Source: Capitulum mitella
Taxonomy: Eukaryota; Arthropoda; Thecostraca; Pollicipedomorpha; Pollicipedidae
NCBI GenBank assembly: GCA_030062745.1
Contig: CP099847.1
Coordinates: forward strand, 3,766,304 to 3,830,303
Length of the DNA: 64,000 nt
Reading direction: 5' to 3'
Part shown: in pieces, positions 27,519 through 60,434 of the stretch
Position numbering within the stretch: position 1 is the stretch's first letter
Layout: each line of letters begins with the position of its first letter
The notes under the pieces: model-generated
Databases searched by the model: none
What the model was told of the DNA's origin: nothing
Seen by the model: the letters and a program-made list of their open reading frames with translations, nothing else
Position numbers and translations under genes: made by a program

Positions 27519-28706
27519 GTAGGCCTGTGGGGACGAGATGTTCACATCGAACAACGTGCTTCGGCTTCAGGTTTTTTGGACAGCATTGGCGAGGAATCCC
27601 TAAGTCGGAGGTGACGAACGACATCCGCGGTGTTTCACCTCCGTGGTTAGCGATGTGGCTCTCTTAGAATGTCCGTTAGTGCCCTCCTTCACGCCAAATC
27701 CGCCTCAGGTGATGTGCTTCACGGCTTTAGCCCCTCTCCGCGCCTGGTTACGCCTGTCTGCACCGCGCCGACCGAGAGGCTGTTCGCCAGCGCTGACCGT
27801 ACCTCAGCCTGCGCCTGCAGACCTGACGGCCGCCTGGCGCCGCCGGCAGGTTCTGGTGTTTGTCGCCGTGCTGGCCGTGGCTGCGGCCGACAGTCCGCCG
27901 CGCCTCCTACCCGGCCCCGGCGCCGCCCAAGTACGGCCCCTACAAGCCGGTCGAGGAGTACCCGACGGTGAGTTGGTGTCCGCGTCCTGCCGTCTGCCGG
28001 TGCGACGCCTCTTCGGACGACGGAGGGAGCGGAGGGAGCGGAGGGAGCGGACGACAGCCCCAGTCCTCTCGCCTTGGTTCTGTTCGGTGTGGCCCGTTCC
28101 CACCCCTGGTCACATCTTAGGTGGATCGTGCTGGAGTGTGGGTCTCGGAAAGATGCGACATTTCGCTCGTCGAATTTGACTGAAAGACATTGTGCTGTTG
28201 TTTCTTCAGTAAGCTGTTAGTTTTGTGTTGGCATACTGCGACTTTCAGACTGTCGCATATTTCACCCGAATAGGGATATGATTTCATGAAATGTCCTATA
28301 AATATTAAGTTCGGAACTACTCCTACAACGTTCCAAAACAGCAGTGCGGGTGCATCATCGAGCTGACTTACTGTTTCAGGTGCCCCCCAAGTACGCCTAC
28401 GGGTACGAGGTGCAGGACAAGTACACGGGTGCCGACTTCGGCCAGGAGGAGGCCCGTGACGGCTACCTGACCCAGGGCAGCTACCGCGTGGCTCTGCCGG
28501 ACGGCCGCATCCAGACCGTCACCTACAAGTCGGAGGGAGACGCCGGCTTCGTGGCCGACGTCCAGTACGAGGGCGAGGCCCAGTACCCCGAGTACCAGCC
28601 CAAGTACCCGGCGCCACAGTACTCGGCCTACCCGGCCCCGGCCCCCAAGTACCCGGCCCCGGCCCCCAAGTACCCGGCTCCGGCCCCCAAGTACCCGTCC
28701 AACTGA
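27513..28706 (+). CDS. Cuticular protein with Rebers-Riddiford chitin-binding domain (frame broken in exon 2)
   Basis: Three exons: 27513-27518 (MK), 27850-27967 and 28380-28706. The tiny first exon followed by a phase 0 intron is the usual cuticle-gene design. Exon 2 starts with a signal peptide core VLVFVAVLAVAAA. Exon 3 carries the chitin_bind_4 domain (YAYGYEVQDKYTG, EEARDGYLTQGSYRVALPDG, IQTVTYKSEGDAGF), followed by Tyr/Pro-rich KYPAPAP repeats and the stop TGA. Family role: binds chitin and is secreted into the exoskeleton. Exon 2 is 118 nt where 117 is needed. The signal peptide is in one frame and SYPAPAPPKYGPYKPVEEYP in the next, so the gene as given carries one extra base near 27895-27915. 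That is either a sequence error or a recent null allele. It is likely stage-regulated from the TATA promoter. Confidence 0.82.
27850..27967 (+). CDS. Cuticular protein exon 2: signal peptide and proline/tyrosine-rich start
   Basis: The acceptor CGGCAG precedes VLVFVAVLAVAAADS in phase 0. The mature part (YPAPAPPKYGPYKPVEEYPT) is read one base later, and only that frame joins in phase 0 through GTGAGT to exon 3. The one-base excess falls between the Ala-Ala-Asp-Ser codons and the first Tyr-Pro codons. Confidence 0.75.
28380..28706 (+). CDS. Cuticular protein exon 3: chitin-binding R&R domain and C-terminus
   Basis: The acceptor TTTCAG joins to VPPKYAYGYEVQDKYTGADF. Consensus residues of the R&R motif (aromatic Y-x-Y, E-x-RDG, G-x-Y, DG-R-x2-V-x-Y, GF-x-A) are present in about 65 residues. 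Then come QYPEYQPKYPAP and three near-perfect YPAPAPK repeats. The domain resembles RR-2 (hard cuticle) more than RR-1, but I am not certain. Confidence 0.9.
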   Translation: MPPKYAYGYEVQDKYTGADFGQEEARDGYLTQGSYRVALPDGRIQTVTYKSEGDAGFVADVQYEGEAQYPEYQPKYPAPQYSAYPAPAPKYPAPAPKYPAPAPKYPSN

Positions 28707-38176: not shown

Positions 38177-38240
38177 ATGCAGCTCTTCCGTATTACGGGT
38201 GTAGTGGTTTGCATTCCTCTTTCTACATGGTTTCTCGCCG
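38177..38240 (+). CDS. DSL gene exon 1: signal peptide
   Basis: ATG at 38177 opens 21 codons with a hydrophobic core ([14 protein letters not shown]), then a strong CCG|GTAAGT donor in phase 1. The phase matches the acceptor CTGACAG at 40221-40223, and joining gives [15 protein letters not shown]. The upstream DNA is GC-rich. The exon is assigned by phase and signal-peptide character only. Confidence 0.6.
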
Positions 38241-41200
38241 GTAAGTAATCGGGTAGCATCAGGTGATTCAAATATGATATATCATAAAAGTTTTGTGTAA
38301 TGATCTTCAAACCATGTTAGCAATAAGAAAGTGCTTGAGCTGTAATCAGCTCCGGAGGAACTGATTATGAAATTCGTAAAATTCTCTGAATAATGCCCCA
38401 CGTATGAGCGTCATAAATCCAAAGACAATGTTATCCATAGGCAAGCAAGATTTTTAGCTTTTAAGCGGTGTTGAAACACATCATTACCCTTACCGGTCCT
38501 TTTATTTTCGACCCTTCCCCAATGATCTCGGGCCTTGATAAAGCTATAACCAAGAGATATCCATCAAATCTTGTGAAAGCCTGTGAAGGACGAGTGTATT
38601 TTCTCATCACCTGTCTATCTATACATCTCTCTACATATCTATCATCATCATCAGCTATCATCCCATTGCTTTGGTATTATTTAGGAAATGGGGCAAGTTA
38701 GAAGATTCCAGGAGCGTTTCTTCAGTTGCGAACATTCCGAAAAGACTCGGGAAAGTTCTAATACGTTCAGATTTTATTTTCAATGTTTTAAGTCGTGTCG
38801 GGTTAGGCCATTGGCCGGGGTAATAATAAATAAAACAATAATAACTTTTGCTGAGACTTTAAGGTGGACGAAAATACATCACATATTTGCCTCTGAATCA
38901 TTACCACTGATTCCTTGCCAGTCATGAAACAACTGAGAGTTGAAATGGTCAAATGTCATCTAAAACCATGTCACGTCACGAAAAGTCGTATCTTTAGGTG
39001 AAATTATAACGTAAAAAAGGTATGGCCATTCATCCCCATCCTAGCGAAATTTTAACAAATGGAGCTGTACAAGAAAAGGATTGAAAAAATGGCATTTGAA
39101 CTGCCATGAATTTCAGGCAAACCTCACCCTTGATTCCCACGCTGTGATGCCTCGTGACTTGCTCAGGCTAAACGTACTAAATGAACATCTTTTTGCCATG
39201 AAAGCGTTTTGAATGACACAGCAAGTCTAAATAACTGGTGCTCTAAGCCAGGTCAGATCAAGTGAGGATAGCAGGGAAAGTTATCCTCTATCGCAGCCGG
39301 CATCTGAAAATAAGATGTGTTTGTTGATATCGCATGAGACATTCGCCAAAACTGTCTAAACCCGTCAAACGAACTGCACGTACCAGACAGTTCATCCTGA
39401 GGTGCCATCTGATGTCAAACTTCGTAAAAAAAATATTATTTGTACCTCATAAACAGAAGTATGCTGTAAACCTAAAGACACGTGATGCCTTACACCATTT
39501 CATGTAATGCCAGTGCGTCTCAGGTGATCTGAAACATTTCAAAAATAGCGTCAGGTCAGATCATGTTAGTTTCAATATCTGCATGAATCCAAACCAAGAC
39601 ATACTCACCATATATCACAAAAAGCAAACAGTAAAGAGCTATCATTTTCATTTCACCTTACGGTATCGATGTAATTTACGGAAAATGATAGTCAGGCACG
39701 TATCCGGGATTTTCCTCGGGGGGGAGGGCGAATGACAAATTTTGTCATACGTCACAGGCATATGACGAGATTTATAAGAAAAAAAACAGTAGTTCCATGT
39801 AAATCACATCATATTTAACACACAGAAAAACATATGTTTGCTCTTGCATCATGTATATGATCACTATTCCGTAGTGCTGCGACATCGCTATATATCTAGT
39901 GTAGACTGCTTGGCTCGGGGGGGGGGCATGACCTTCATGGCCCCCCTTGGCTACGTCCCTGATGAAAACAACGGATTTGAAACAAATGAATCACTGGTCC
40001 ACTCGATGGTTTGTTGTTTTATTTCTTTCGTAATCTCTAGTCCAAGCGTAATTTTTTACATGTATTGCTTCAACATGGGATATCTCAGTGACTGGCAGGG
40101 TTATTTTTCAGACTTGCTGTGCTGTGACAGTAAGTAACCCAATGCTTGCTCGCTGTGGCTGTGCCCCCTCCCTGGCTGTGCGCTGTGGCTGTGGCTGCCG
40201 CTGGATCTGGCTCAGTCTGACAGCACCGTTCGGGCGGCGGCAGGTCGAGTCGTCCGGCCAGCTGCGTCTGCGGCTCATCAGCTTCAGCAACCCGGAGTCT
40301 CGCGCCGGCGGCGGCCGCTGCTGCCAGCCGACGGCGCGCGCCGACGGCGCCGCCTGCCGCGGCCAGTGTCGCACCTTCTTCCGCGTGTGCGCCACCAGCC
40401 TGGACGGCGCCGGCGGCGGGACGACCAGACGGGTCCGCTCGCCGCCGCCTCCACCGCCCGGCGTCCGGCTGTCCAGGATTCCGTCACGACGCCTGGCGGC
40501 CGACGGCCGGCGCCCGACTGGCGCCCCGCCGGACAGGGCGGGGCCGGGCCAGCAGCCGGAGAGACAGCCGGAGAGACAACCGGGCACGACCGGACCGGAC
40601 AGACAACCAGACAGACAACCGGGCACGACCGGACCGGTCAGGCTGCCGGACAGACGGCCGGGCACGACCGGACCGGTCAGGCTGCCGGACAGACAACCGA
40701 ACGGACAACCGGACACCTTCGGACTGGACAGACGGCCGGGTGGGCAGTCGGACGGACAGCCGGACACAGCAGTCTCGGATACGGATAGGCTGGACAGCCA
40801 GGCGGACAGCACCACATTGGACAATAAAGAGAATCATCTGGACATAGTCACGCTGAACAATCTGAAGAATCAGCCAGACATAGCCGTCTCGGGCGGTCCG
40901 GACAGTAAACAGGGCACTGGCGACCTGGACAGCCCGGACAGTCAGCAGGCGGCGGCCAGTTCGGACAGCCTGTCAGTAGCTTTGAGCCCGTCGTCCCGGA
41001 CTGGTGGTATCGGAGGGCAGGAGAAGCAGCCGGAACAGACCAGCGCCGGCCCCGAGGCGGAGGGAGGCATCTCCGTCAGCCAGGCGCAGGGTACAACCAT
41101 CCAGGTGGTCCACCAGCTGATCCCATCCTCTCGCGAGCACGCAGCAGCTGAGGAGGCAGACCAGCAGCGGCACAGTCAAGAGCAGCCTCAGGATATTGCG

Positions 41201-44200
41201 TTGACCCTCGTTGAAGACGGTGACTACTTTCGACTGCATTTCGTGCCGGTGTCAACGCAGGACAAGCTCAGCTTCGGCCGCCACCCAACAGATGGCAGCG
41301 GGCGGCGGGCTTGGAATGGATTTAGACGCCGCTTTCGAAGAGCGGCTACGGATGGCGCCACCGACAAAGCAATGTCCAGCCCTCGCCGGGGAGTCCAAGA
41401 AGGATTTGGCGAAGGGTCGCAGCCTCCGTCAAAGGAGCACCAAGAATCAAAGTTAAATTACAAACCGTTGTCGAAGGAAGCTTCGGACGACGAAGATGTG
41501 TCTGACGCAGAAGACCCGCACTCCGAGGAGCGCCTGCTCCACGAGCGAGTCTCAGACCTCCATAACGCTGGGTCTCAGGACGGAGAGCTGCCTGCTGGTG
41601 ACGCAGCGCCTCTGAACGTGAGAGAGGGGGCTGAAGCGGCAGCTGAGCGGCCGAACCCGGCGAGTCGCCGCCGCCGGCCGGCCCCGGGGAGCCGCCTCCG
41701 GGCGGGCTCGCCCCCTCGCTGGAGGCACCCGCAGATACCGTGTTCTTACGGCCTGCTGGTGACGGGAGTGGTCGCCAACAGCACCCTGCATGAGCGGAGT
41801 GACCGCCACCTGGAGATGGCCTTCCCGTTTGAGGGCGCCTGGCCGGTAAGAAACATTAAGGAAAAGCCTAATGATTCAGGGGCGGGGACATGCTTTTCTT
41901 TTGTATCGTTTATGGGGGTTAGCGCATTCCCCAGTTCGGCTCGGAAAACTCGGAGAGCGTTGTCCTAGTCAAGTAAGCTAAGGCCTTTGGAATGACAATC
42001 ACAGCAAAGGGTGACGAGACGACGCAGAAGTTATTTGTGTCATGTAACTAGTGGACTCATTTAACTAATTTTGCTCTGTCCGCCTTCTGCTGGCCGATTT
42101 TGCAGGCATCTGTATACTAATTCGTCTCTTTGCCTTCAGGGCGCCTTCACCCTGATCATAGAGGCCTGGCACGATAGCACTGGGGACCTGTTTTCGAGGA
42201 AGCCCAGTTCGCAGGATATCCGCTCGGGTGAGTCGGCTGTGCCTCGTGTTGAGCGTAAGTGTGTATGTGTGGGGAGGTGTAGGTGTGTGCGGAAGAGGGG
42301 GGGGGGGGTGACGGACACTGTCGGCTGCTTGCCACCCCATCTGAGTGGGGATGGGCTGTCATAATGTCATAACGTTCAACGGTTTCGCCACTTATAAAAC
42401 TGAGCCTAGCCGAAACGTTGCTTGCTTTCACTGATGATGCTCTAGCGAAATATGCCCAAGTAGCCTGGGCTGTGTGCAGTGGGACCTCTTGGCAGACGGG
42501 ACACAGTGGTGCGTAATATCCGTGACATCTTCGGTTAACGTGACATCTACTTGGAACTCCCAGTGCTCTTCGCCAGAGGCTACAGTAACTTGTTTCTCGG
42601 CTCATCGTTATTCTTCCGGCTGTCGCTTTCTCAAATAAAGACTATATGTGTTAGGGCATTGTAATGCTCAATGGAATGAAATGTGGTGGAACAGGATGGC
42701 CATGTGCCATTTGGGCTTCATTGTTTATAGGTGGCCCCGCTTAGAAGGTTCTGAGAGTCGTTTTATTAGCAGACAGTATTTTCGTTTGCCTTGATTGTTT
42801 CTGGACATTTTTGATCATTCAGACATAAGCCATTAACCACGCAACAGTCTTGTGTTCGGGAATATCCTCATCAATTACCATGATTGCTTTACAACCATCA
42901 GTTTCCCACCGATACTGGTGTTTACCGTTTTTACACCTTGTAGATGTTTCACGCGATTGCTTTCACACCGGAACTGGGCTACATCCCGAATCAACTTTTG
43001 TTATTTCGATGCCACGCTTGATGTCTTTCCTACGGTACCCATTGAAGTCAGATCTCAGATGGAGCAACGAAATGGATTTTTGATTTAAAGGCATGCCTCC
43101 GGCCTCGGTTCGCTTTTTAAATCACAGCTCGTTTCCAGTCTGCTCAGACAATTGACGAGAGCGTGGATAAAATGGCGGAACAGGTGATACGGCGGCGATA
43201 GAGACCAGATGACGCGCTGTGGTGACGGGCGGATAGCTGACGCCGGATGACGCTGAGGTGATGCTGAGGTAATGCTGGGTGACGCTGTGGTGATGATGTG
43301 GTGATGCTGTGGTGACGCAGATCAGGCGACGCAGACCTGAGACGCTGGGTGACGCTGGGGTGACGGGCGGACCAGGTGATAATGTGGTGACGATTTGGTG
43401 ACGCTGTGGTCACGACGGGTGACGCTGGGTGACTCTGTGGTGACGCTCTGCTGACGTTAGGTGATGCTGGATGACATTGGATGACACCCTGTGGTGAGGC
43501 TGGGTGACGCTGTGGTGACGGTGTGGTGACGCTGTGGTGGCGGTGTGATGACCCTGGGTGACGCTTTGGTAACGCCGTGGTGACGCTGGGTGACGTTTTG
43601 GTGACGGCATGATGACGCTGGGTGACGCTGGGTGACACTGTGATGACGTTGAGTGACGCTGTGATGACGCCGTGATGACGCTGTGGTGACGCTGCGATGA
43701 CGCCGTGGTGACGCTGGGCGACGCTGCTGTGACGATGTTGTGACGCTGCGGTGACGCCGTGGTGACGCTGTGGTGACGCCGTGATGACGCTGAGTGACGC
43801 TGGGTGACACTGTAATGGCGTTGGGTGACGCTGGGTGACGCTGCTGTGACGACGTTGTGACGCTGTGGTGACGCTGCTGTGACGCTGCTGTGACGGTGTG
43901 GTGTGGGCGGCCCGGCAGGTGCTGCTGCCCGGATCATCAGCCGGACGGTGGTGCGGCCGCGGCTGTCGGCAGGCGGCTGGACCACAGAGCGGCTGCGGCA
44001 GGACCACGTCCGGACTCCGGTACGGTCTCCGGGTGGTCTGCGACGCCGGCTGGTCCGGACCCAACTGCACCTCGGTGAGCGGACCACCTTCCGCGCCGGG
44101 CAAGCGCCGGAGGGCCTGTTGACGCGTCTGTATTTGTCTCCTACTGGCTTAGATGCGAAATGGCCATATATGTATGTGGGCGCACCTGATTTACCAAATA

Positions 44201-47200
44201 CAACAGGGTGCTGTTCTGACGCCAAACTCAGTGGACGCACTCGGCTGGGAGAGGCTTGCGAGCGCGACCCTCTTGAGACCTGACGATTTCTGGAGGCGGG
44301 GTGGAAGCTTTATGCTTTGTCTTCTTGCTATCAAATTTGGACAATGTTCGACTGTGTATTTTTGTCCCGAATGTTTTGCGATTGTAAACAGAGCCCATGA
44401 TATGCCGAACATGTTGAGAGAACCCTGATTTGATTACCAAAGTGTTCCTCAAGCACAGAGTAATTTTGTCATTTTCTGCAACACACGACATTTTGCGACC
44501 AAAAATAGAAAGAAATTGAATTGTTACCACAAAATGAAAACATTTACTGCCGAAGGAATTTATCACGTAGAGCGCAAACCACACAGGGCAATTTTTCCCT
44601 GGCCGATTCTTGTGAGGAGGGTTATTTCAAGGAAGCATAAGCTAGCTGTCGAAAGGATTCCAAACTAAAGCCCGCTGACACTGAGGCGGGCATCGTAATT
44701 AATGCCTTGCAGACGAGTTTTTTAGACATCCATTGCCCGCATGTCTGGCACCTTGTGTGTGAGAGGGCGTGTGACACAGAAAAAAAGATGTTCTGCGTTC
44801 CCGGGCAAAACAAATGTCAAAAATGCTTCAGGAAGCTACGCTTATTCTGGTACATTTTTGACTGCCTGATGCAAAAACCGTCATTTGCGATCAGCATTTT
44901 CCTTTTACTAGGAAATGACGAGCCGAGGTAAACGAAGAAGACATCTATATGTGGGCTACTAGGGTGTTTATTGTCCAATTCCTAAGACAAAGGTTACAAT
45001 CTCAGGTACCCCATTTTCCCCATACATCGTTTTTTACGTACTTGGACTGCACCAGCAGTTTCTAAGATGCTGGTTTCCTCAGGGTTAGAAACCCCGTTTT
45101 CCCAGACATCGTCACGTCTTGCTGCTGCCGGATACGCCCCTCTCTCTCCGATACTCTGAAGGACGCGGGCGGCGGCCCATTTTCCGCGTCAGTCACGATA
45201 ACCGCGGCACGCGAGGAAGTGCGCTCAGCCATGTATGAAATGCGGCGCGGTAGACCTAATGAAACTGCCGCTTCGCTCAAAACCGCCCTCTGTAGATCTC
45301 TGGCACTCTGTTCACGTTTCAGAGTGGGTGAGATTCGGCGGCGCTCTGATGGAGGCCCGTGAATCCACCGGGATGATGGCTAGATGGATTCACTGGTACG
45401 CTGGTGACCATGGCGACGACGTTAGGTCTCAGGTTTCTCGACAACAGAGCTATACCCCGGTCATCTGGTGTGTCAGACGATCCCCGGTATTTTGGTAACT
45501 GGGCGAGATTCCCCGAGTATCGCTAACTCGGTGAGACTCGCGGTACAGCGGCGACTCGGTCACGGCTCGCCGGTGACCGGCCGAGCTGTGGCGGCTCGCC
45601 GGCGACGGTCGGCGACTCTCCCTGACGGCGCCGCCACGGCGGGCGTCGACTGACATCCGTGACCCAGAGCGGCGTCGAGCCGTCGCGGCGGGAAGAGCGC
45701 GGACGGCGCCGGTGAAAGTGCAGGCTCTGCGGACCGCTGGCCGAGCTCGGCCGAGGCGGCCGCCCGCCAGTCCCGCCCGGCTCGGCAAAACAACCCAGCC
45801 ACCGGGCCGCCCCGTAATAACGCGGAGCCGAGGCCGCTCCGTTCGAGAGCCGACCTTCCGACCCGACAAACAACACAGGCCGGGGGCGGGCCTGTTACGG
45901 CATTACGCAGAGTCCACTCGGTATCAACATAGACCAGGGTCCACTCTGTATCAACGCAGACCAGAGGCCACTCTGTATCAACACAAAACAGAGTCCACTC
46001 TGTATCAACGCAGACCAGAGGCCACTCTGTAATAACACAGATCAGAGTCCACTCTGTATTAACACAGAACAGAGCCAACTCTCAACAACACAGACCAGAG
46101 TCCACTCTGTATTAGCACAGACCAAAGGCCATTTTGTATCAACACAGACCAGAGTCCATTCTGTAACAACACAGGACAGAGCCCGCTCTGTAACAACACA
46201 GAACAAAGTTCGTGCTCCACCAGCTACAGAACACCTCGCTCTGTAGGGAAATCCACCCTGCGGCCCAGCAAAACACAAGACGTAGCCGATGCATCAGATT
46301 CCAGTGCAAGAGACGTGTTTTGAATGAGGCGAGACCGCTACCCAATCTAACACAAGCACGTCACGACCACCACTTGACATGGGTGAAACTGGCTCCACTT
46401 GGATCCAAACGGGGCTACCACTGAATGTTGATCACTGTGGTCAGTCTAGACGGTGCGATTCTTGTCTATGTTTAGGCTTCATGCAACTCGGAAACACAAC
46501 TTCCTTTGCGTGTGCTTATGACGTGACTTATGCCTGAGGAGGGGCATTTATGACAGCCACGAAGTTCCGACTGCTGCAGCGCGATGTTGCTCTTTTTACA
46601 AGCATTAGGCCGTATGGCCACACGTATGAATTACACGCAACGTGCGCCCCGCCTCACCCAGCCTGTTGGTGGTGCTGAGCACATCTGTCGTCAGGCTTGG
46701 CGAAATTTGACTGCAAATACGTCAGCGTGATAGCTGAAACAGGCGCTTTTGCACAAAGGGCATGTGTCTCTCCCGATCGAAAACGGCGTAAGCGCGCCTG
46801 TTCTCAAAGGCACCCTTGCCCCACCGAGACCGTCCCCGCTGACTTCTTCTTAGCTGAAGACGCCTCTGTCCCGCTGATAGCACCGCGCCCAACCGAAGGC
46901 GTTCCTGCCACTTCCTGCCGAAGGAGCCCCGCCCACGAAAAGCTCGGACGCCTGGCATCAAAGGCGTCTTTCCCGAATGAAGACGCCCCTTACCGCCAAA
47001 GGTGTCCCGCGCAGATGAAGACGGCCTTTCCACGGAAGGCGCCTTCGTCTGCAAGGAAGACGCTTCTAGTGTCGCTTCTAGTGTCGAACGCGCCCGTTTC
47101 AAAGTGGAACGCTCCTGTTCTACATTAGACGCTTTTAGTATCAAATGCCTTCCCTCCCAAGTGAAGGTTCCCGTTTTCCAAAGGCTGCCCCTCCCAACCG

Positions 47201-50200: not shown

Positions 50201-53200
50201 ACAATCCTGTTCTGGGATTACCGTTTACGTGAAGCAACATATCCATAGCTGTATCAGCCCACAGAGCACAGGTGGTGCTACGACTCTACTAGCTTGACGG
50301 GGGCCATTCCATTTAACATTGCCCATATGGCGGGATGTGGAAATAGATTACCTAACAATGCATCTGGCCCTACCAAGTTTGAAAACATCCCCGCGCGGTT
50401 GTCAGACCGTTACTGCGGCCATTGGCCAGCGGGTGCACACTATTTTAAACATGTTTTTCTAACGCAGGGAAGGATCCGCTCGCAATTTTCCTGCCAGTTT
50501 TGCTCAGACAAGTTGATGCTGCCGGAAATAAGCATGATTAAGACGCAACATGGACTTCCTCACTCATTTCTTCCGGCATGGAACTCCCTGTTCTCGCTCA
50601 TGCATCGCAGCGCGGCCTCACGAGAAGCCAGTTAAAACCTAAAACATTCATGGATAGTGGCAACGTATGGGGTACCACGACGCTTACCAATTGCGCCATC
50701 ACTTGCATGCGTGACCACATTGTTATTTAGTCCATGTTTCATTCATGTGCACGTACCTGTAAATGTGCATGTACATTATATTGTAAACATGATGATTCGC
50801 CGTTTTTGTTGATGGCCTTGTTTTGCGGATTCTACGTCGGCTTTCAACAGGAAGCCGATCTCGATTTCCTGACACACTCAGGGGGACGCATGCCGCTCCT
50901 GAGAATCCCCCAGTGGCGCGGTGCACGGGAGAGCCTCAGACTATCACCGGTAGCCGTCCGGGCGCCACTCGCCGTTCGGCTCCAGTGAACCGGTGTCGGA
51001 ACCGGAACCGTGCCGCCAGCTGAAACGCGCCCAGCCGGAGGTGGCCCGGTATGGCGTGCTGCCGGAAACCTGTGGTGGCCGGGGTGGCCTGGCAGTGGTC
51101 TGTGGTGGCCGCTAGATTGTGGTGGCACTGTCTTGCTGGCAGTAGTCTGTGGTGGTTGGGGGAGTGTCCGGCCTGCTAACAGTGGTCGGGGGGCGTCCTG
51201 CCTGCTAACAGTGGCCGGGGGTGTCTGGCCTGCTAACAGTGGCCGGGGGTGTCCGGCCTGCTAGCAGTGGCCGGGGGTGTCCGGCCTGCTAACAGTGGCC
51301 GGGACTGTCCGGCCTGCTAACAGTGGTCGGGGGTGTCCGGCCTGCTAACAGTGGCCTGGGGGTGTCCGGCCTGCTAACAGTGGTCGGTGAGTGTCCGGCC
51401 TACTAACAGTGGCCGGGACTGTCCGGCCTGCTAACAGTGGTCGGGGGGTGTCCGGCCTGCTAACAGTGGCCGGGACTGTCCGGCCTGCTAACAGTGGCCG
51501 GGACTGTCCGGCCTGCTAACAGTGGCCGGGGGGTGTCCGGCCTGCTAACAGTGGCCGGGGGTGTCCGGCCTGCTAACAGTGGCCGGGGGGTGTCCGGCCT
51601 GCTAACAGTGGTCGGGGGTGTCCGGCCTGCTAACAGTGGCCGGGGGTGTCCGGCCTGCTAACAGTGGCCGGGAGTGTCCGGCCTGCTAACAATGGTCGGG
51701 GGTGTCCGGCCTGCTAACAGTGGCCGGGGGGTGTCCGGCCTGCTAACAGTGGCCGGGAGTGTCCGGCCTGCTAACAATGGTCGGGGGTGTCCGGCCTGCT
51801 AACAGTGGCCGGGGGGTGTCCGGCCTGCTAACAGTGGCCGGGAGTGTCCGGCCTGCTAACAATGGTCGGGGGGTGACCGGCCTGCTAACAGTGGCCGGGA
51901 GTGTCCGGCCTGCTACAGCGGCTGGAGGGTGTACGGCCTGCTAACAGTGGCCGGGGGGGGGGGGGGAGTGTCCGGCGCCGCGGGCCCGTTACGCAACAGC
52001 GTCCCCGGCCGGCTGCAACAGCGCCGCTGCCCAGTTTCTCCGGCGACGGCGCCCGGCTCTTCCGGGTGGAGCGGCGGCGGCCGGAGTCAGTCAGAGAGTG
52101 GGCCTTTCCCGACTCCTCTGCGAACCTACCTCTCTCCCCAGCTCTCCCACTCCTCCCCCTCTCTCTCTCACACATACACATTCACGGATCTGTTCTCTCT
52201 TTCCCACTTTCTGTCATATTTCACTTCCCTGTATTCTTTTCCTTCCTCCTTTCTCCGCTCATATCTCTTCATTACAGCTTTGGAGATTGGCTCAGTGCTT
52301 ACCAGTCTTCTCTTGATCGGCGTCCATCCCCAGCTGCCTTCTGCAGTCACCTTGCAACGTCTGCCGTCCCGCCACGTTTCGAAGTCCGCTGTCCGTGATC
52401 ATGGATGGGTCCGAAGTCCGCTGTCCATGGATCATGGATCATTCATAACAGCATCACGCATTACCGACGCCCAATTCTGTTTTTTTTTCTCATCCCAGCA
52501 GACGCCTACACTCATCTCCATCAACCGTTATTCCCTGCAGCCGTTTCCAAAACTGAACAACGTCTGCCTCATCTCTGGCTCAAAAGGTGCGCCGTGTTTT
52601 CGAGTGACATTTTTGTCATTCTGGAGACATCGATGTTCACACAAATTCCGTCTTTAATCTTCATCACCCAATTTCATGTCATTAAACCACTCCGCGTCGA
52701 AACGTCAGCGTCCGTGTCGGCCAGCTGACGTGCGAAATGCCGCCAGTCTGGACAGCGCGTGCAGACTGGCGGCGTCAGCCGGCGACAACGTCAGCGGCGG
52801 CGTCGGCGGCGGCGGCGGCGGCGCTGTGGCGGCCGATCTTCCGGCTGCGGCCGTGACTGGGCCCCGGTCGGCGGCGGCGGCGGCGGCGGTGGCGGCGCTG
52901 TGGCGGCCGATCTTCCGGCTGCGGCCGTGACTGGGCCCCGGTCGGCGGCGGCGGCGGCGGCGGTGGCGGCGCCTCCCGGCCCGCCCGCCTCTCCCTTTCT
53001 CCGGGCGACGGCGGCCGCTTTTCTCGGCGCCTTTCGTTGTCGCTCCCGGCCCCCGGCGGTGCTGACCCTCCGACGCGTCCGCGCTGATGGACCGGGCCGC
53101 TCGCTCCGGTTGCGTAACCAGCTCACCCTCCGCACACGGGCATTGCCCTGCCATAACGCCGCCCAGCGCAACACAGGAAAACAAGTGAACGGCGATAGTA

Positions 53201-56200
53201 CCGAATCGAATGCGGTACTCGTTCGAGAAGAGAAAATGTAATATTTACGACGACTGGGTTGTGAAAGACCGTTCCAGCTCGTGATAAACGTTCGTTCTCC
53301 GACCGCTAACGCTGCTTGCAGTTGTGCCCCGCGGACGGACGGGCATTGTACGATACGTGTCTGCCCGCGTGTGTCTGCCGCCGTCTGACGCAGCGGCGTC
53401 TGTTGACAGGCGTGCGAGGCGGCCGCCAAGACGAAGGGCCACTACAAGTGTAAGGATGACGGCCTGATCGAGTGTCTGCCCGGCTGGACCGGAGACGTGT
53501 GTGACGTGCCCATCTGCAAGACCGGCTGTGACCCTCTGCTGGGCTACTGTAAACAGCCCGGCGAGTGCATCTGCAAAATCGGTGAGACGCGCTCCATTAC
53601 CGCACCTAGCCCAGAGCTCGAAATGTGCCGGGAGGGAGGCTCATGCAGATGCATTTTGTAAGACCGAAAAGACTGATCTGCGTGATCGCCTTGTGGCGAA
53701 TAACGGTTTTAATAAGCGTTTCAGTTGAAGGTTGTCAGCTATCGTCAGTTCTTGCACCCAACTCGTTTCTCATGCATGGACGGCTGTCGTCACGCATCAG
53801 CGCGCTGCTCCTGTCACGTCACGCATGAAAGAGGGTCCGTCTGCCGTATGTGGTGGCGGCAGCTCTGCGCGGTGCAGGCGTAACACCGGCGCTAACGACG
53901 TCACGGCGACACGTGACCACCAGGTTACGGCGGGGAGCTGTGCAGCGACTGCGTCAAGCTGCCCGGCTGCATGAACGGACACTGCCGGAAGAGCTTCGAG
54001 TGCCACTGCAACGAAGGTTGGACGGGTCTCTTCTGCAACAAACGTGAGTTGACCACCGAGCCCCAGCTGGGTCCAGCCTGGGCCGCAGCTCTCACCTGCG
54101 CCGAAGAGCAGCCAGTGCAGGATATAGCTCAAATCGAGCATGGTGCATCGCAAGAACTCCTCGAACACCTAACATGTTGGTATTTTGTGATGCGTATCTA
54201 AGGTATGATATATGATCCTGTTTGGCCGGGCTCCATGCGTTGTACGACGGACTCGAAATTCAGGGCACCCTGCGACTGATGTACGCAGTCAGTGTGTCGT
54301 GCGTTGTTGATGCGCTCACAAACCAGCTCCACGCTCGTCAATGAACAGAATCTCACACCCACTCTGTTTATATCCTGTCTTAGAAAGATCATTTTCACTT
54401 CATGTGTAGGGTGCAGAGTCTAGAACCTTCCGCAGTTTTTGGTAGACGAGAAACAGGAAATGGTCCTTACCCGTGCGAATTTTAAATTAGAGCTGTCTGT
54501 GCTCAGTGTAATTTCACACATCTCAACTGTGTCTTCGATATCAGGACGGTGATAAATAGTCGGAACTGTCCAGGTACAATCGTGCATCGGAGTGGAAAAG
54601 CTCTAAGTGGAAAAGCCTAGTAACATACGTACATTTTGTCAGGCACGTGTTTTACCAAATGATCGATGACATTACCATGACCTAAGCTTCAGTGCTAACA
54701 TTTCCCGAAAGTACCCATCATAATGGGTAAAAACAACGTTTTGCGACTTCTGCTGAAACTGCCATTTGCGCTTAGCAGAAGAGAAAACCTCGTGAAAATT
54801 TTCAGGTTAATCGAAGGCCGTTCGTCGGGAACCTGGTCGTATGTTTTGCACGAAACTGCCAATTTTGTACAGGGCGACTGCTTGATCAGAGTTTCTGCTG
54901 ACTGGAAAAGCTGGACACGTTTCCAGCTAATGTTGTTCATGGCCCTCTCACATTGGTCCTCTGACGTCATCTATGGAGTGATGGCTCGTCACGCCCGGGG
55001 GGCATGATGAATGCGCGATTCGGAGAGGAGCGCGATGCTGTTCTGAGCAGCGCAGAGGACTCGAGAACGGGGAGGACCGGCATTCCACACATTGTACATC
55101 CGGACATCCCTACATAGTCACCATAACTGGAATGTATCGGCGTCGTTTTGGACAGGCTGGCGCCGTTCGATGACCGGGCGGGCGGTTGGCCGGGCGGCAG
55201 TTGGCCGGGCCTGGCAGTGTGCCCATCTGAGGCCGGGCCTGGCAGTGTGCCCATCTGAGGCCGGGCCTGGCAGTGTGCCCATCTGAGGCCGGGCCTGGCA
55301 GTGTGCCCATCTGAGGCCGGACCTGGCAATGTGCCCATCTGAGGCCGGACCGGCGCATACTGGTCGGAGAAAGTCCGGCTGGCCGTCACAGTTTCCCGGC
55401 CAGACCAGCCAGGCCCGGGAGCGGCACAGACCGCCTACTGTGGCCGTCACAGTTCCCGGCCAGACCAACCAGGCCCGAGAGCGGCACAGACCGCCTACTG
55501 TGGCCGTCACAGTTCCCAGCCAGACCAACCAGGCCCGAGAGCGGCACAGACCGCCTACTGTGGCCGTCACAGTTCCCGGCCAGACCAACCAGGCCCGCGA
55601 GCGGCACAGACCGCCTAACTGTGGCCGTCACAGTTCTTGGCCAGACCAAGCAGGCGCGGGAACGGTGCAGACCGCCCACTGTAGCCGTCTCAGTTCCCGG
55701 CCGACCAGACCAAGGGGTAGTCGACAGAACCGAGAAAGGCACAGACCGCCACCCGACGACATGGACATCTCCCTTACCCCAGCCAGTCCTCGGAGAACTA
55801 TTCTGGCCAACGCGACCCCTTCCCGGCGGAATGACCCCTCGCTGTCATCAGTCTTTCCCGGGCAGACTGACTCCTCATTGACACTAGTCTTTCCCGGGCT
55901 GACTGACTCCTGACTGACACCAGTCTCTGTGGCTGACCGGCGTCTTTCATACACCAGTAAAAAATGGAGGTTTTTGGGAGGCCGGGGAACAAATGGATAA
56001 GTTGGTGTTATGTGCTTTCCTAAAAGTGCATTATTACAGAGCTGTACTATTTTTGATGATTCATGTCATCTATCCCAGAGCCTTATTCCCTTTGTTGTGT
56101 AGTGTTGCACTGCATAATGATATTTGATCTCATCCAGCACGAAGGGCATTTTACCGCTATAATTTGCTACGCTGTACTGCCAGTTAATTCGTGTTCTTTG

Positions 56201-59200
56201 TAAGAACACAAGCTGGTGAGGAAGAATCAAGTTCAGAGCAAGATGAGCTCTAAAGCAAAATGAACCCCTCGAAAATCTACCCCTGTCACCTCACTTTTCA
56301 TGATGATACGTTTTCTCAGTCGCAAACGCTGAACCCAGCCGAAACATCGAAAGGAAACGTACTGGAGCATAAATATTTCTTGTACTTCTGCATGGGAATC
56401 ATGCTTTTGAAATGTGTAACGTCCTCACCATACTGGTTGTGTGGAGGCGGCGAAGTGTAGTGGTTACCGTGCTTGCCTTGTGACCAAAAGGTCCACGGTT
56501 CGAGTTCGGATAATTAGCAACATTTCGCCGTCCCTCGAGACAACCGGCGTGAGAGGTCGCAACGCCAAATGACCCTGGCAGTTGAGAGCGTCGTCAGATA
56601 GGACAATAACCAACCATACTGACTGCGTGGTATGCTTGCACTTGCAAATTATGCTACACTAAGGATGGCTGGTGTTGACATCTCATGCCTGACTGGATTC
56701 CCCCTGTTTTCAGCGGTGTGCGCCACTGGCTGTGACCAGTCCAGGGGATATTGCTCAAAGCCCAACGAGTGCAAGTAAGTGGCAGCGGGCCGCCGCCTCG
56801 TGCTATCCACGCACCGAGTGTGACAGTTAGCTCCCTCACACTCCGCCGCGACTGGATTTTGTCACCAACTCGGCCAACACAGCAGCTCCCCAGCAAGGTT
56901 CTGTGTCATATTCCCATGCACGTAGCCAGGATTTTCCTCGGGGGACCAATTGTCAAATTTTGCCAAATGCCACTGGTCTTTGACGAAATTTATAGGAAAA
57001 ACAACCATTTTATGTAATTTACCTCATATTTAACGCACAGCAAAACAAACAATGTCTGCTTTTGCAACATGTATGTGATCACTTTTACGCATTCCTACGA
57101 AATCGCTATACATCTAATGTAGACCGCTTGGCTCAGGTGAGAGGGCATGGCTCCCTTGCCCCGTCCCCCTGTCTACGTTCCTACATATTCCTGGAATTTC
57201 CAGCACCGGCCAGGCCTAAAGTTGTTCTTTTTTGCGCTAGTCACCGCCGGAGAAACTGAAAGTCCGTCACCGCATGACGCCTGGTTGTCACGTTCCTTTA
57301 CGGAGGATCAAGTTTGGCTCATGTTGGCTACGTCACCGGAAACCGAGCGCTGTCGTCCGTAAGTCATGGTACTGACAGTCCGTTTTCTGCCCAATAGATG
57401 TCGCATTGGCTGGGCCGGGGAGACATGCAGCGAATGCCAGCTTCTGCCTGGTTGCATTAAAGGTTACTGCGATAAGCCACTGGAGTGTAAATGCCTGCCT
57501 GGCTGGACGGGATTCTTCTGCGAGAGAGGTATGTGGAAACGGTCGGGCCATGGACGCGGGCGTGCCTTACGTCGTGTGCAGAGATGGTTTGTGAAGCCAA
57601 GAAATAGTAGTGAGCCATAAACATGCAAACAACTAACTTGAACCTTTAACAAATATCAAGATTCCCCGGTCGTAACCTCTTCTTATAGGCTTTGTTTGAT
57701 TCTCCCTCGGTTTTGCGTCCTGAAGTGAAATATAGTTACTGTCCTCCCGTGAACATTCATTACATTAATCATCTCGACGGTGTGCTGGGCCCATAGCGCG
57801 ACCTTGATCTCTCGACCTCTCACGCATCGGAACTTTTTCAGCGATATGCGCAGAAGACTGCAGCAAAGATCATGGATATTGTGAGAAACCAGGCACATGC
57901 AGGTACGACCTTTGTACTGAACTCCCCGATGGAACCCGTGCGACCAATGATATTGATATGTATTTACATCACAATGGAATGTAATTCTGCGTTTTCTGGA
58001 ACATTTTAGTAACCATCCATTGTTCTGCAACACCATAGCTCGACATATTGTAGCATTCCATTGTTTTTATATTCAGCTAAGCAGGAATCAAAAGAGTTGT
58101 TTGTCGTAGTGCATTCGAAGGTTTGGAACATCGTTCGAGTTACGATAAGATGATCGGTGATAACCAGAGGCCCCCTGCATCGGTCAGCATGCGGTGATTG
58201 TTCTGCGCTCACTCGAAAATTCACGGTTCGGCCAGTTCAGTACCGAATCGGCGGCGTCGCGTGGGCAGCTCGCCAAGGCCGGCAGTCGGGATGGCACCCG
58301 TTAAAGCCAGCGCGCGGCTTCGGGCGGTTTGACAGCGCGCGTGACGCCGCCGTGACGTGACGACGCTGTGACGCTCGACAGGTGTGACGTCGGCTGGCAC
58401 GGCGCCCACTGCGACACGTGCTTCCCGTACCCGGGCTGTCTGCACGGCAACTGCACCGAGCCGTGGCAGTGTCAATGCCACGAGGGCTGGGCAGGCTTCC
58501 TCTGCGACAAACGTGAGCAGCCTCCGACCGGGGCCCGCCGGGAGCGGCAACAACAGGCTGACCCAGTGTCGACCGACCCACCTGTCGCCCGCCCTACGCA
58601 CTGCCGACCGACCCACCTGCCGCCCGCCCTACATACCGTTGACCGACCCACCTGCCGCCCGCCCTACGCACTGCCGACCGACCCACCTGCCGCCCGCCCT
58701 ACACACCGTTGACCGACCCACCTGCCGCCCGCCCTACACACTGTCGACCGACCCATCTGCCGCCCGCCCTACACACTAGACCGACCCATCTGCCGCCCGC
58801 CCTGCACACTAGACCGACCCATCTGCCGCCCGCCCTGCACACTAGACCGACCCATCTGCCGCCCGCCCTACACACCGTTGACCGGCCCACCTTTCGCCCG
58901 CCCTACACACTGTCGACCGGTCGCGGCGCACCTACAGACCGAGCGCTGCTTACAGGGCATTGGCCCGACGACAGTACTCAGAATTAGAATCTATTGACGT
59001 AAAGGAATATCCGGTCATGATTTGTACCAGATGGTTCGACATTTGGCGTTTTTTTATATCATATGCGAATTTTGAGCTTTTGATGGACACTTAGCCGACA
59101 CAGATGACCGCGGTGCATCATCCAGGAGCTCAGTAACGGCAAGTTTACCTTCCTGCGGCAGTCTTCCTGTCTTGCCTTCAGGGTAAGGCAAGACAGCCTA

Positions 59201-60434
59201 GCGCCGTGATGGGGGAGGTTCTGCTGATATAACAACAGACGCGATGCTGACTTTGTGGAAGGGGAAGTACGTTGCCATGTCAGTAGTGAGTAATCAGGTC
59301 TGTGCTGCCCCTGAGAAGGCACGCTATGGTCTCACATGGTTCAGCTATATCGCAGCCGAGCCTGCCTCGCTGCAGCAGTAGATGCCTCCTGTCACAATGT
59401 CGGTCTGTTATCCGGCAGCGGTGGACCCATGCAGCTACTACTCGGGCGTCTGCAAGAACGGCGGCACGTGCCGAAATGTGATCGTCAACGAGGACCCGGC
59501 CTACAAATGCTTGTGCCCGGCCGGTCTCACGGGCAGGACGTGCGAGGTGCGCGTGGTCACCACGACCACAACCACCACCACGACCACCACCACGGTGTCG
59601 TCGCGGTCCGTTCCGGGAGGACTGCCTGCGGCGTCTGGCGGCGGCGCAGCCGGCGGACGGCCGGTCCGGCCGGCGAACGGCACCGCTCCGGCCGATGCCG
59701 ACTGGAGGCCGCTGCCCTCGCGACCCTCGGCCGCCGCCAACGCGACGGCAGCGGTGGCCGCCGGCGGCAGCTGGCGCAACGACACGCGGCCGCCGCTGGA
59801 CCTCGGCTCGGCCGGCGTCGTCTCGAACAGAGTGGACCGGCGCGTGGACGCCGCGGCCGGGAACGGCTCCGTGTTCGCCACGCACCCGGACGACCAGCAG
59901 GCGAGCACCACGCCGCCGCCGACGCCGCTCGACACCGAGACGCAGGCGCAGGTGATCGCCGACAACATCAAGTACGTCATCAGCTCGTTCAAGCGGATGG
60001 CCAAGAACCTGTTCCCGTCGGCGGCGGAGCCGGTGCGGCCGGCGGCGGGGCGGCCGCTGCTGCGGCGGCCGCCGGTCCGCCAGGTGGCGCCGCAGGTGAT
60101 CAGGGTCGGCCGGCCGCCGCGGCCGCTCCGGCCCTCGCCGTACCCGCGCAGCAGCTACCCGAACTTCTCCGGCGGCCGCGGCAACCTGCCGCCGGGCTTC
60201 GTGCTGCAGGCGGGCCGGGGCCGGCGCGGCCCGCCGCTGGAGCCGGCCAGGGGCCAGCGCGTGCCGGCCGGCCAGCTGAGGCTGCCACCGCCGGGCGCCG
60301 GCAGGGAGGCGCCGCGAGCCGAGGCCAGGCTCGAGCCCACACCGGCCGAGCCCAGGGGACGCAGGGGTCCCGTGGCCGAGAATATCCCGGCTCGATCGGC
60401 GCCTGACGAGGTGACGACGGTCGTCGGCGATTAG
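38177..60434 (+). CDS. Secreted Delta/Serrate-family (DSL) protein with three Delta-type EGF pairs (eleven exons)
   Basis: Join 38177-38240, 40224-41845, 42140-42227, 43919-44074, 53410-53581, 53924-54043, 56714-56774, 57398-57528, 57842-57902, 58382-58512, 59419-60434. All phases agree. Exon 4 is one base too long; discounting it gives 1207 codons. Order: signal peptide; MNNL domain; DSL domain with all six Cys; three EGF pairs of the type that follows DSL in Delta/Serrate (Delta/OSM-11 motif); one canonical EGF; poly-Thr linker; Pro/Arg-rich tail. Exon borders (..[12 protein letters not shown]) match those of vertebrate Delta-like genes. Family role: ligand of Notch at the cell surface. Oddities: a 442-residue insert in MNNL, DSL loop RPRDD replaced by EAAAK, and no transmembrane segment, so it is probably secreted. 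A modulator, antagonist or co-ligand of Notch is inferred rather than a classic agonist. It could also be annotated as delta- or jagged-like. Confidence 0.8.
38241..40223 (+). other. DSL gene intron 1
   Basis: AT-rich intron of about 2 kb with no exon recognised. It contains a MITE-like repeat at 39690-39962 and, near its 3' end (40145-40200), short GCTGTGGCTGTG repeats. Confidence 0.5.
39690..39962. mobile_element. MITE-like dispersed repeat, copy 1 (CACGTAKCCRGG ends)
   Basis: Begins CACGTATCCGGGATTTTCCT CGGGGGG and ends CCCCCTTGGCTACGTCCCTG, so the ends are imperfect inverted repeats. The middle shares CATATTTAACRCACAG, GATCACT, RAATCGCTATA and TAGACYGCTTGGCTC with the copy at 56917-57180. 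It lies in intron 1 of the DSL gene in the same orientation as the other copy. No coding capacity. Confidence 0.72.
40224..41845 (+). CDS. DSL gene exon 2: MNNL domain with 442-residue insertion
   Basis: Starts [20 protein letters not shown] and continues with [10 protein letters not shown] and [12 protein letters not shown], the conserved first half of the MNNL (C2-like) domain. The second half resumes at 41735 with [18 protein letters not shown] and ends [11 protein letters not shown] at a GTAAGA donor in phase 0. In vertebrate Delta-like proteins these halves are about a dozen residues apart in one exon. Here 442 in-frame codons (40409-41734) separate them: Gln/Pro/Asp/Arg/Thr repeats, then Ser/Glu/Gln-rich disordered sequence. 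An alternative start at 40244 (after GCGGCGGCAG) lacks a pyrimidine tract. Confidence 0.8.
40409..41734 (+). other. Low-complexity insertion / candidate exitron inside MNNL domain
   Basis: 1326 bases with no stop codon in the MNNL frame. The 5' part (about 40540-40790) consists of [18 protein letters not shown] repeats. The 3' part is non-repetitive and hydrophilic (for example [20 protein letters not shown]), looking like true disordered protein. The domain resumes exactly after CACCCGCAG, a good acceptor, and a weak donor (CGG|GTCCGC) exists at 40433 in the same phase. Removal of 40433-41734 (1302 bases, 434 codons) would keep the frame. Both a coding insertion and an intron retained in frame fit the sequence. 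Confidence 0.6.
40540..40790. repeat. In-frame tandem repeat ([13 protein letters not shown])
   Basis: Units of GACAACCGGGCACGACCGGA plus CCGGACAGACAACCAGACAG vary in length by multiples of three, as expected if the frame is selected. They encode Gln-, Pro-, Asp-, Arg- and Thr-rich sequence within the MNNL insertion. The opposite strand also has a long but spurious frame. Confidence 0.75.
42140..42227 (+). CDS. DSL gene exon 3: end of MNNL core
   Basis: The acceptor TGCCTTCAG gives [18 protein letters not shown] and [11 protein letters not shown], matching the Delta segment GTFSLIIEA-H...  The position of this intron, directly after ..WP, is the same as in vertebrate Delta-like genes. The donor G|GTGAGT is in phase 1. 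Confidence 0.88.
43205..43905. repeat. GTGACGCTG minisatellite filling the end of DSL gene intron 3
   Basis: Roughly 60 irregular units of about 10-14 bases: GTGACGCTG followed by GG, TGGT or CTGT. The array runs to within about 15 bases of the exon 4 acceptor, so it replaces the usual polypyrimidine region. Each unit contains TGACG, a half-site for CREB/ATF-type factors. Long frames on the minus strand ([17 protein letters not shown]) are artefacts. Confidence 0.9.
43919..44074 (+). CDS. DSL gene exon 4: MNNL C-terminus and first part of DSL domain (one-base frameshift)
   Basis: The phase 1 join reads [20 protein letters not shown], then [10 protein letters not shown], as in the Delta region ..LISR..L.VG..W. 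The DSL start [20 protein letters not shown] is one base out of frame with it. The exon has 156 bases where 155 is required, so one extra base lies near 43998-44022. It ends in phase 0 at GTGAGC. The minisatellite of intron 3 runs to within about 20 bases of the acceptor. Confidence 0.72.
45905..46235. repeat. 27-bp minisatellite (CCACTCTGTATCAACACAGA)
   Basis: About eleven units of CCACTCTGTATCAACACAGA plus CCAGAGG with substitutions and small indels. Period 27. Open frames through the array on either strand are repeat artefacts. Confidence 0.85.
46740..47260. repeat. Degenerate interspersed GAAGACGCC / GAAGGCGTC repeat
   Basis: The words GAAGACG, AAGGCG, CGCCTTC and GCGTCTTC recur every 20-40 bases in both orientations (for example AAAGGCGTCTTTCCCGAATG and GAAGACGCCCCTTACCGCC). 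Units are mutually complementary, so the single strand could fold into a series of hairpins. I cannot define a clean period. Confidence 0.5.
47740..48428 (+). promoter_or_regulatory. Possible internal promoter (CpG-rich) upstream of alternative first exon
   Basis: A strongly GC- and CpG-rich block of about 0.7 kb ends at a good start context (GGTCACCATGC). It has no TATA box. A short upstream ORF (ATGCGGCCGGTCGCCGCCTGA's first codons MRPVAA, then stop) begins at 48368. The placement, immediately before a signal-peptide exon, suggests a second promoter for the DSL gene, but this is inference. Confidence 0.35.
48429..48488 (+). CDS. Internal signal-peptide exon, possible alternative first exon of the DSL gene
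   Basis: ATG with context CACCATGC opens exactly 20 codons: [15 protein letters not shown], then AEFRL, a clear signal peptide. The G|GTGAGT donor is in phase 0. Exon 5 (53410) starts in phase 0, so splicing would give a 583-residue secreted form lacking MNNL and the first part of DSL (1752 nt, frame intact). The alternative is the first exon of an unrelated gene, or of a lost or misplaced DSL copy: vertebrate Delta exon 1 also ends in phase 0. Confidence 0.6.
51150..51955. repeat. 27-bp minisatellite with CTAAC in each unit
   Basis: About 30 units of GTCCGGCCTGCTAACAGTGG plus CCGGGGG, varying at AGTGGTCGG/AGTGGCCGG and in G-run length. The period is 25-28. Each unit contains TGCTAAC, a close match to the branch-point consensus, followed by AG, and ends in a run of 3-6 G that could contribute to G-quadruplexes. 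The last unit has a G run of about 13. Confidence 0.92.
52795..52985. repeat. About 75-bp duplication with GGC triplet runs
   Basis: Two nearly identical units share GCTGTGGCGGCCGATCTTCC and GGCTGCGGCCGTGACTGGGC, flanked by (GGC)n runs. No frame is selected. Confidence 0.85.
53410..53581 (+). CDS. DSL gene exon 5: rest of DSL domain and first half of EGF 1
   Basis: After TTGACAG the frame is [20 protein letters not shown], then [20 protein letters not shown] and [13 protein letters not shown]. Spacing from the third to the fourth DSL cysteine (13 residues inclusive) equals that of Jagged/Delta, and GHY is kept. The loop residues RPRDD are replaced. The donor G|GTGAGA is in phase 1. It is phase 0 at its start, so it can join either exon 4 or the internal signal-peptide exon at 48429. 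Confidence 0.87.
53924..54043 (+). CDS. DSL gene exon 6: second half of EGF 1 and EGF 2
   Basis: The acceptor GACCACCAG joins as [16 protein letters not shown], then [20 protein letters not shown] and CNK. This completes the first Delta-type EGF pair. It ends AAAC|GTGAGT in phase 1, ready for the P-V/I-C start of the next pair. Confidence 0.88.
55190..55352. repeat. 28-bp minisatellite (GGCCGGGCCTGGCAGTGTGC)
   Basis: Five to six units of GGCCGGGCCTGGCAGTGTGC plus CCATCTGA, nearly identical. Confidence 0.9.
55385..55690. repeat. 60-bp minisatellite (CCGTCACAGTTCCCGGCCAG)
   Basis: Five units of CCGTCACAGTTCCCGGCCAG plus ACCAACCAGGCCCGAGAGCG plus GCACAGACCGCCTACTGTGG. The last unit is diverged. 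The 60-base period leaves frames open in both directions without coding meaning. Confidence 0.9.
56440..56620 (+). mobile_element. tRNA-derived SINE
   Basis: The head contains an A-box-like TAGTGGTTACCGTGCTTGCC and, 23 bases later, a B-box-like GGTTCGAGTTC, the internal RNA polymerase III promoter of tRNAs. The A-to-B distance and the intervening CCTTGTGACCAAAAGG (an anticodon-arm-like stem) fit a tRNA head. The 3' part (CAGTTGAGAGCGTCGTCAGA) has no coding capacity. It lies in intron 6 of the DSL gene. Confidence 0.7.
56714..56774 (+). CDS. DSL gene exon 7: first half of EGF 3
   Basis: A 61-base exon: [20 protein letters not shown] with acceptor TTTTCAG and donor AA|GTAAGT in phase 2. It has the same length and phases as exon 9, supporting duplication of an exon pair. 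Confidence 0.87.
56917..57180. mobile_element. MITE-like dispersed repeat, copy 2 (CACGTAGCCAGG ends)
   Basis: Begins CACGTAGCCAGGATTTTCCT CGGGGG and ends near GTCCCCCTGTCTACGTTCC. Internal blocks ATATTTAACGCACAGCAAAA, ATGTGATCACTTTTACGC and TCTAATGTAGACCGCTTGGC match the copy at 39690-39962. It lies in intron 7 of the DSL gene. Confidence 0.72.
57398..57528 (+). CDS. DSL gene exon 8: second half of EGF 3 and EGF 4
   Basis: A 131-base exon: [20 protein letters not shown], then [20 protein letters not shown] and CER. Acceptor CCCAATAG, donor GAGAG|GTATGT in phase 1. Same size as exon 10. Confidence 0.88.
57842..57902 (+). CDS. DSL gene exon 9: first half of EGF 5
   Basis: A 61-base exon: [20 protein letters not shown], acceptor TTTTTCAG, donor AG|GTACGA in phase 2. 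It is homologous to exon 7 in length, phase and sequence pattern (I/V-C-A-x2-C-x5-GYC-x-KP-x2-C). Confidence 0.87.
58382..58512 (+). CDS. DSL gene exon 10: second half of EGF 5 and EGF 6
   Basis: A 131-base exon: [20 protein letters not shown], then [20 protein letters not shown] and LCDK. Acceptor CTCGACAG, donor AAAC|GTGAGC in phase 1. A 33-37-bp minisatellite begins about 50 bases downstream. Confidence 0.88.
58560..58925. repeat. 33-37-bp minisatellite in DSL gene intron 10
   Basis: About ten units of CGACCGACCCACCTGCCGCC plus CGCCCTACACACYGT. In the centre the units shorten (CTAGACCGACCCATCTGCCG). It begins about 50 bases after the exon 10 donor. Confidence 0.9.
59419..60434 (+). CDS. 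DSL gene exon 11: last EGF, poly-Thr linker and Pro/Arg-rich secreted tail
   Basis: The acceptor TATCCGGCAG gives [18 protein letters not shown], then a canonical EGF ending [14 protein letters not shown] run of twelve Thr (VVTTTT..VSS) and a Gly/Ala/Asn-rich, potentially glycosylated stretch follow. Next comes a possible helix ([20 protein letters not shown]), then about 130 residues rich in Pro, Arg and Gly. The stop TAG is at 60432-60434. No hydrophobic membrane segment is present anywhere in the 338 codons, unlike ordinary Delta or Serrate. Confidence 0.85.

Follow-up and report, generated by a model that had tools for sequence, protein, structure and literature searches.

Gene structure at the locus

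The window, that is, the whole 64,000-nucleotide stretch of DNA analysed here (C9:3766304-3830303), holds a DSL-type gene on its + strand, to which we refer as the focal gene. Three-frame Pfam scans of this strand placed a DSL domain and a Delta/Jagged-type EGF at about 53.4-54.0 kb, with further EGFs of this type up to about 58.5 kb. In a scan of the spliced product, EGF_DL_JAG was found in four stretches (E 4.3e-36). Exons 2-11 span 40244-60434 and encode MNNL, a six-cysteine DSL domain, three Delta-type EGF pairs, a seventh EGF and a basic tail, the stop codon lying at 60434 (Table 1). Pfam and translation thus bear out the domain order proposed in the first-pass annotation: MNNL, DSL, three Delta-type pairs, one more EGF, a Thr run and a Pro/Arg-rich tail. 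The focal gene is real. A chance joining of exons from separate genes was considered and ruled out by the equal exon order and lengths in a paralog on C7, which we call D.

Table 1. Features of the focal gene, given in window positions.
Feature	Position	Strand	Remarks
Candidate exon 1, signal peptide	38177..38240	+	candidate from scan; provisional join to exon 2
Exon 2: MNNL first part, long insert, MNNL second part	40244..41845	+	start placed at the acceptor shared with D, Delta A and Delta C
MNNL insert, 450 aa, between the cysteines of FFRVC and CSYG	40391..41740	+	
Conserved island of insert	41090..41251	+	27/54 residues identical in D (50%)
RRFRR, R-X-R-R site	41327..41341	+	aligned with RLRR in D; putative cleavage
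Exon 3, MNNL	42140..42227	+	88 nt, same in D
Exon 4, MNNL end and DSL start, frame break	43919..44074	+	156 nt; 155 nt in D
Exon 5, remaining DSL and start of EGF pair 1	53410..53581	+	
Exon 6, remainder of EGF pair 1	53924..54043	+	
Exon 7, start of EGF pair 2	56714..56774	+	61 nt
Exon 8, remainder of EGF pair 2	57398..57528	+	131 nt
Exon 9, start of EGF pair 3	57842..57902	+	61 nt
Exon 10, remainder of EGF pair 3 (meets strict DOS consensus)	58382..58512	+	131 nt
Exon 11: EGF7, Thr run (59558-59594), Pro/Ala/Arg-rich tail, stop	59419..60434	+	

The same annotation had counted eleven phase-consistent exons, which does not hold at two points: exon 4 breaks the frame, and the phase of exon 1 does not match the conserved acceptor. 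Read in phase from exon 3, exon 4 yields the end of MNNL and then loses the start of DSL, which lies in the next frame. Relative to its counterpart in D, which is read in a single frame, the exon carries one extra base. If this break were real, the focal gene would be a young pseudogene and D the working gene, a reading that the extra base favours and that we nevertheless consider decidedly improbable. Across exons 2-11 the AG acceptors and GT donors are intact, and no stop or frame break other than that of exon 4 was seen. In addition, the canonical gene Delta A shows a similar isolated one-base insertion relative to Delta C, in an EGF exon. Because of this parallel, the break in exon 4 is likely, but not proven, to be an assembly error, although Delta A could itself be decaying; one assembly was examined, and two one-base breaks occurred among the genes studied in it.

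The predicted signal peptide is provisional. In a simple scan of 15000-40240, exon 1 had the strongest donor and the second-best hydrophobicity among seven candidates, and is thus a fair candidate. It leaves in phase 1, however, and fits only the acceptors at 40224 or 40131, whereas the MNNL exon is entered in phase 0 in D, Delta A and Delta C (3/3 examined). The scan contained one phase-0 signal-peptide candidate, at 34561-34686.

Several other features of the window were noted in passing. The introns of the focal gene contain large tandem arrays with units of about 22-85 bases, at 43248-43903, 51160-51958, 55203-55348, 55380-55712 and 58567-58919. On the + strand, 4125-4988 and 12345-12734 look by eye like a MAP-kinase phosphatase (a rhodanese-like part, then a catalytic part); the latter frame is 87% identical to a relative at C7:9978916, the chromosome that also carries D. 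Again by eye, adjoining frames on the - strand (17287-18794) resemble a non-LTR retrotransposon reverse transcriptase in pieces, and 28302-28703 (+) resembles an exon of a chitin-binding (RR-type) cuticle protein.

Paralog D and the canonical Notch ligand genes

We searched the 477-Mb genome (16 contigs) in six frames, ignoring introns, so that all counts are lower bounds. DSL was found at no fewer than five loci and MNNL at at least five, fitting the same five genes: two Deltas and a Serrate with one Delta-type pair each, and the focal gene and D with three pairs each. The Delta/Jagged EGF2 model matched at at least nine places, three in the focal gene, three in D and one each in Delta A, Delta C and Serrate (150/151 candidates scored). 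D lies at C7:9.25 Mb, Delta A at C9:1.08 Mb, Delta C at C7:0.18 Mb and Serrate at C9:10.36 Mb; one Notch gene was found (NOD, C2:29.16 Mb). Downstream of the EGFs, Delta A and Delta C each encode a transmembrane segment. The canonical Delta that the first-pass annotation had suggested looking for elsewhere in the genome is therefore present as two genes, accompanied by Serrate and Notch.

D has the order MNNL with an insert, DSL, three pairs, EGF7, a short basic tail and a stop, and no anchor was seen in it. Seven of the ten exons compared (3 and 5-10) are equal in length in the two genes; exon 4 differs by the one base, and the differences in exons 2 and 11 lie in disordered parts. The like layout of a second copy suggests that the design has been kept by selection.

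Three gene pairs are shared between C9 and C7, namely the focal gene and D, Delta A and Delta C, and a phosphatase-like neighbour (C9:3.779 and C7:9.979 Mb). Such pairs would be as expected from a genome duplication of the kind reported for barnacles (PMC11331182). The dS values were 0.19 for the long EGF exon of Delta A and Delta C, 0.26 for the phosphatase exon (67 codons) and, between the focal gene and D, 0.75 for the DSL part and 1.1 or more for other parts, these being partly saturated. Because dS disagrees among the C9/C7 pairs, dating the focal gene and D by a whole-genome duplication was set aside. The low value for the two Deltas could come from a recent duplication, from gene conversion or from silent sites under strong constraint.

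Domains of the predicted protein

MNNL is present, as first annotated, but a 450-residue insert inside it had been overlooked. The first part of the domain (40253-40396) was detected by Pfam with E 1.2e-13, this piece covering only profile positions 1-48 of 157, and the second part was recognised by alignment through D. The insert measures 263 residues in D and 13 in both Delta A and Delta C. A retained intron as its source is ruled out: D carries an insert at the corresponding position, the reading frame stays open through the whole of both inserts, and an island within them is conserved. Much of the insert is rich in Pro, Gly, Arg and Asp, in part as tandem repeats (40553-40767). The loops described as variable in Drosophila and human ligands are beta1-2 and beta5-6 (PMC8490980); judging from strand order, the insert should sit in a different loop. 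Between the focal gene and D, dN/dS is 0.20 and 0.22 for the two MNNL parts and 0.34 for the island.

The DSL domain, interrupted by an intron in the focal gene, retains its six cysteines and matches profile positions 1-45 of 46 in the spliced product (Pfam E 6.9e-12). What the first annotation had missed is the loss of the Notch-contact face. In Jagged1 this face is formed by F199, R201, R203, D205 and F207 (PMC3415683). When scored by eye on an alignment including DLL1 and JAG1, these positions read A E A K K in the focal gene and S D A S R in D, with 0/5 contacts kept in each. Delta C keeps three of the five (R201, D205 and F207) and Serrate four (all but F199), while in Delta A F207 alone remains, position 201 is Lys and the loop is one residue longer. 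The YYG motif named for DSL (PMC2770060) is replaced by WSG in the focal gene and SSG in D, which is a weak test since Serrate, itself a canonical ligand, carries YFN in this genome. Delta A, with one contact, and Serrate, with YFN, are unclean controls for the DSL test. Over 33 codons, dN/dS between the focal gene and D was 0.72 (bootstrap 0.26-1.92), an interval too wide to show either constraint or its loss. DLL3 likewise has a divergent DSL domain: it is a DSL paralog that is not known to activate Notch in trans. Unlike the predicted focal protein, it is a membrane protein.

These observations bear on whether the product could be a soluble ligand or decoy that still docks via MNNL-DSL, in the manner of C. 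elegans DSL-1. DSL-1 is secreted and has one EGF (PMC3415683); it shares with the focal protein a DSL domain and, if the latter is secreted as proposed, a soluble form, and differs from it in having one EGF where the focal protein has seven. The presence of both domains, the constraint on MNNL and the precedent of a known secreted DSL protein (PMC3415683) speak for such docking, but with every contact replaced and a long insert within MNNL we consider it highly improbable.

The three EGF pairs had been described as DOS-type. The description holds for their architecture, but pair 3 is the only one that conforms to the strict DOS consensus as given in PMC11162419, which we applied to the pairs of the focal gene, D, Delta C and Serrate. 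Pair 3 passes in both the focal gene and D, as do the single pairs of Delta C and Serrate. Pairs 1 and 2 miss the consensus in both copies, pair 1 at one more site besides the tryptophan. The residue at the tryptophan position is Phe, Leu and Trp in pairs 1, 2 and 3, respectively, and identical in D. Across 192 codons the pairs have a dN/dS of 0.12 between the focal gene and D (bootstrap 0.07-0.21; dS saturated for pairs 2 and 3) and are clearly constrained; EGF7 has 0.34.

The exon structure offers a route for the multiplication of the pairs. Exons 7+8 and 9+10 form two units of 61+131 nt, each entered and left in phase 1 and therefore copyable without a frame shift. In pair 1 the inner intron lies slightly further along, also in phase 1. 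The matching unit is 61+134 nt in Serrate, and Delta C shares with it the 61-nt first exon, its second exon running on. Because pair 3 and EGF7 align with EGF1-3 of DLL1 and JAG1, the additions appear to be pairs 1 and 2. Pairs 1, 2 and 3 are 73, 68 and 67% identical to their counterparts in D and at most 56% identical to any other pair; as each is nearest its own counterpart, the triplication predates the split from D. The gene may have arisen from a Delta or from a Serrate: pair 3 has near-equal bit scores to the two (67.4 to Delta C, 68.2 to Serrate), and the exon unit is closer to that of Serrate than to that of Delta C.

The absence of a hydrophobic segment from the tail, as first annotated, was confirmed: the best 19-residue mean hydropathy is 0.43 in the focal gene and 0.67 in D, compared with 2.47 for the transmembrane segment of Delta C, which served as control. 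Both tails are basic, with 38 K+R to 21 D+E in the focal gene and 14 to 2 in D. In the tail portion of exon 11, positions 59960-60200 (+) show a helix-like stretch followed by a Pro/Arg-rich run, for which no counterpart aligned in D.

A transmembrane exon might have been missed, in which case the product would be a membrane-anchored ligand. The 23.6 kb past the stop contain three hydrophobic open stretches on the + strand that could be taken for an anchor exon. Six such stretches lie on the minus strand of this interval, however, so that three do not rise above background, and the stop falls within the EGF7 exon in both paralogs. We therefore consider a missed anchor very unlikely. There is precedent for DSL gene models that lack an anchor: the transmembrane segment, MNNL or the signal peptide has been reported as missing or undetected in some metazoan Deltas (PMC2770060).

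A candidate soluble Notch modulator

Compared with known systems, the focal gene combines features of two groups. With Delta/DLL1 and Serrate/Jagged it shares MNNL, a six-cysteine DSL domain and a Delta-type pair followed by an ordinary EGF. It differs from them in having no visible anchor, none of the five contact residues, three pairs rather than one, the MNNL insert and the intron in DSL. Serrate/Jagged proteins are described with a VWC domain and 12-18 EGFs (PMC2770060), whereas the focal gene has seven EGFs and no VWC family at E up to 0.01 (Pfam). The two Notch ligands of Drosophila are both type I membrane proteins (PMC10970066). With OSM-11, DOS-3 and DLK1/DLK2, the focal protein shares the DOS motif, in pair 3, and the apparent dispensability of DSL contact. 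OSM-11 and DOS-3 are secreted C. elegans DOS proteins that act on Notch and have no DSL domain, and DOS-3 is argued to be a ligand in its own right (PMC11162419). Unlike these soluble proteins, the focal gene retains MNNL, DSL and two further, non-strict pairs.

The description as a canonical Notch ligand fails on two features, the contact residues and the anchor. As the design has apparently been kept in two copies, the protein may regulate Notch in soluble form instead of acting as a classical ligand. The explanation that we favour, giving it close to an even chance, is a soluble, DOS-like Notch modulator descended from a Delta/Serrate-type ligand gene that turned secreted. Lacking transmembrane and intracellular parts, such a protein would be unable to pull on Notch, and the loss of the DSL contact face should keep it from docking in the manner of Delta. 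Its EGF pairs, above all the DOS-complete pair 3, would instead bind Notch or a canonical ligand and tune the signal, while the basic tail and the insert could hold the protein in the matrix or add partners. The mechanism is plausible given the action of soluble DOS proteins on Notch in C. elegans (PMC11162419). The effect of the protein on Notch may be help or hindrance, and co-ligand is a putative role. The first-pass annotation had proposed a soluble modulator or co-ligand; the lack of an anchor in two paralogs, the tripled and constrained pairs and the separate Delta, Serrate and Notch genes agree with this proposal, while the lost contacts and the restriction of the full DOS motif to one of three pairs weaken it. 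The frame break in exon 4 and the provisional state of the signal peptide likewise count against a soluble modulator.

The main rival is a Notch-independent extracellular protein, that is, a Delta-type gene co-opted for matrix, cuticle or adhesion, in which the EGF pairs would act as rods and the Thr-rich, basic and disordered parts would serve for sticking or glycosylation. The loss of the contact face in both copies, the long disordered insert and the basic tails would suit such a role, and teneurin-type EGF models also match the pairs. We regard it as somewhat unlikely, given that the MNNL parts and pair 3 are near those of true ligands and that the constraint on MNNL would be unneeded for a merely structural function.

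The proposed Notch modulator can be specified further, at the price of becoming unlikely in full. The focal gene and D would then form a separate class of secreted DSL proteins, descended from Delta/Serrate minus anchor and docking face. EGF1-2 would have become a three-unit binding rod with position-specific variants, and a C2-like MNNL with its insert, island and R-X-R-R site would perhaps be cut into two disulfide-held chains, the whole acting as a two-copy soluble Notch regulator. Secreted DSL proteins as such are already known (C. elegans DSL-1, PMC3415683). The focal protein was not found described in the portions of the open-access literature consulted on arthropod or crustacean DSL ligands, barnacle Notch and tandem-EGF DOS proteins, which is not proof of absence.

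In a DSL protein whose docking face is gone and whose DOS-like module is tripled, evolution would have separated the two halves of a Notch ligand. Whether DOS modules act alone or as helpers was unclear from the earlier literature according to PMC11162419, which argues for their acting alone. On this disputed point, the focal gene and its paralog would allow a test that tells an independent action of DOS modules on Notch from mere assistance to DSL ligands.
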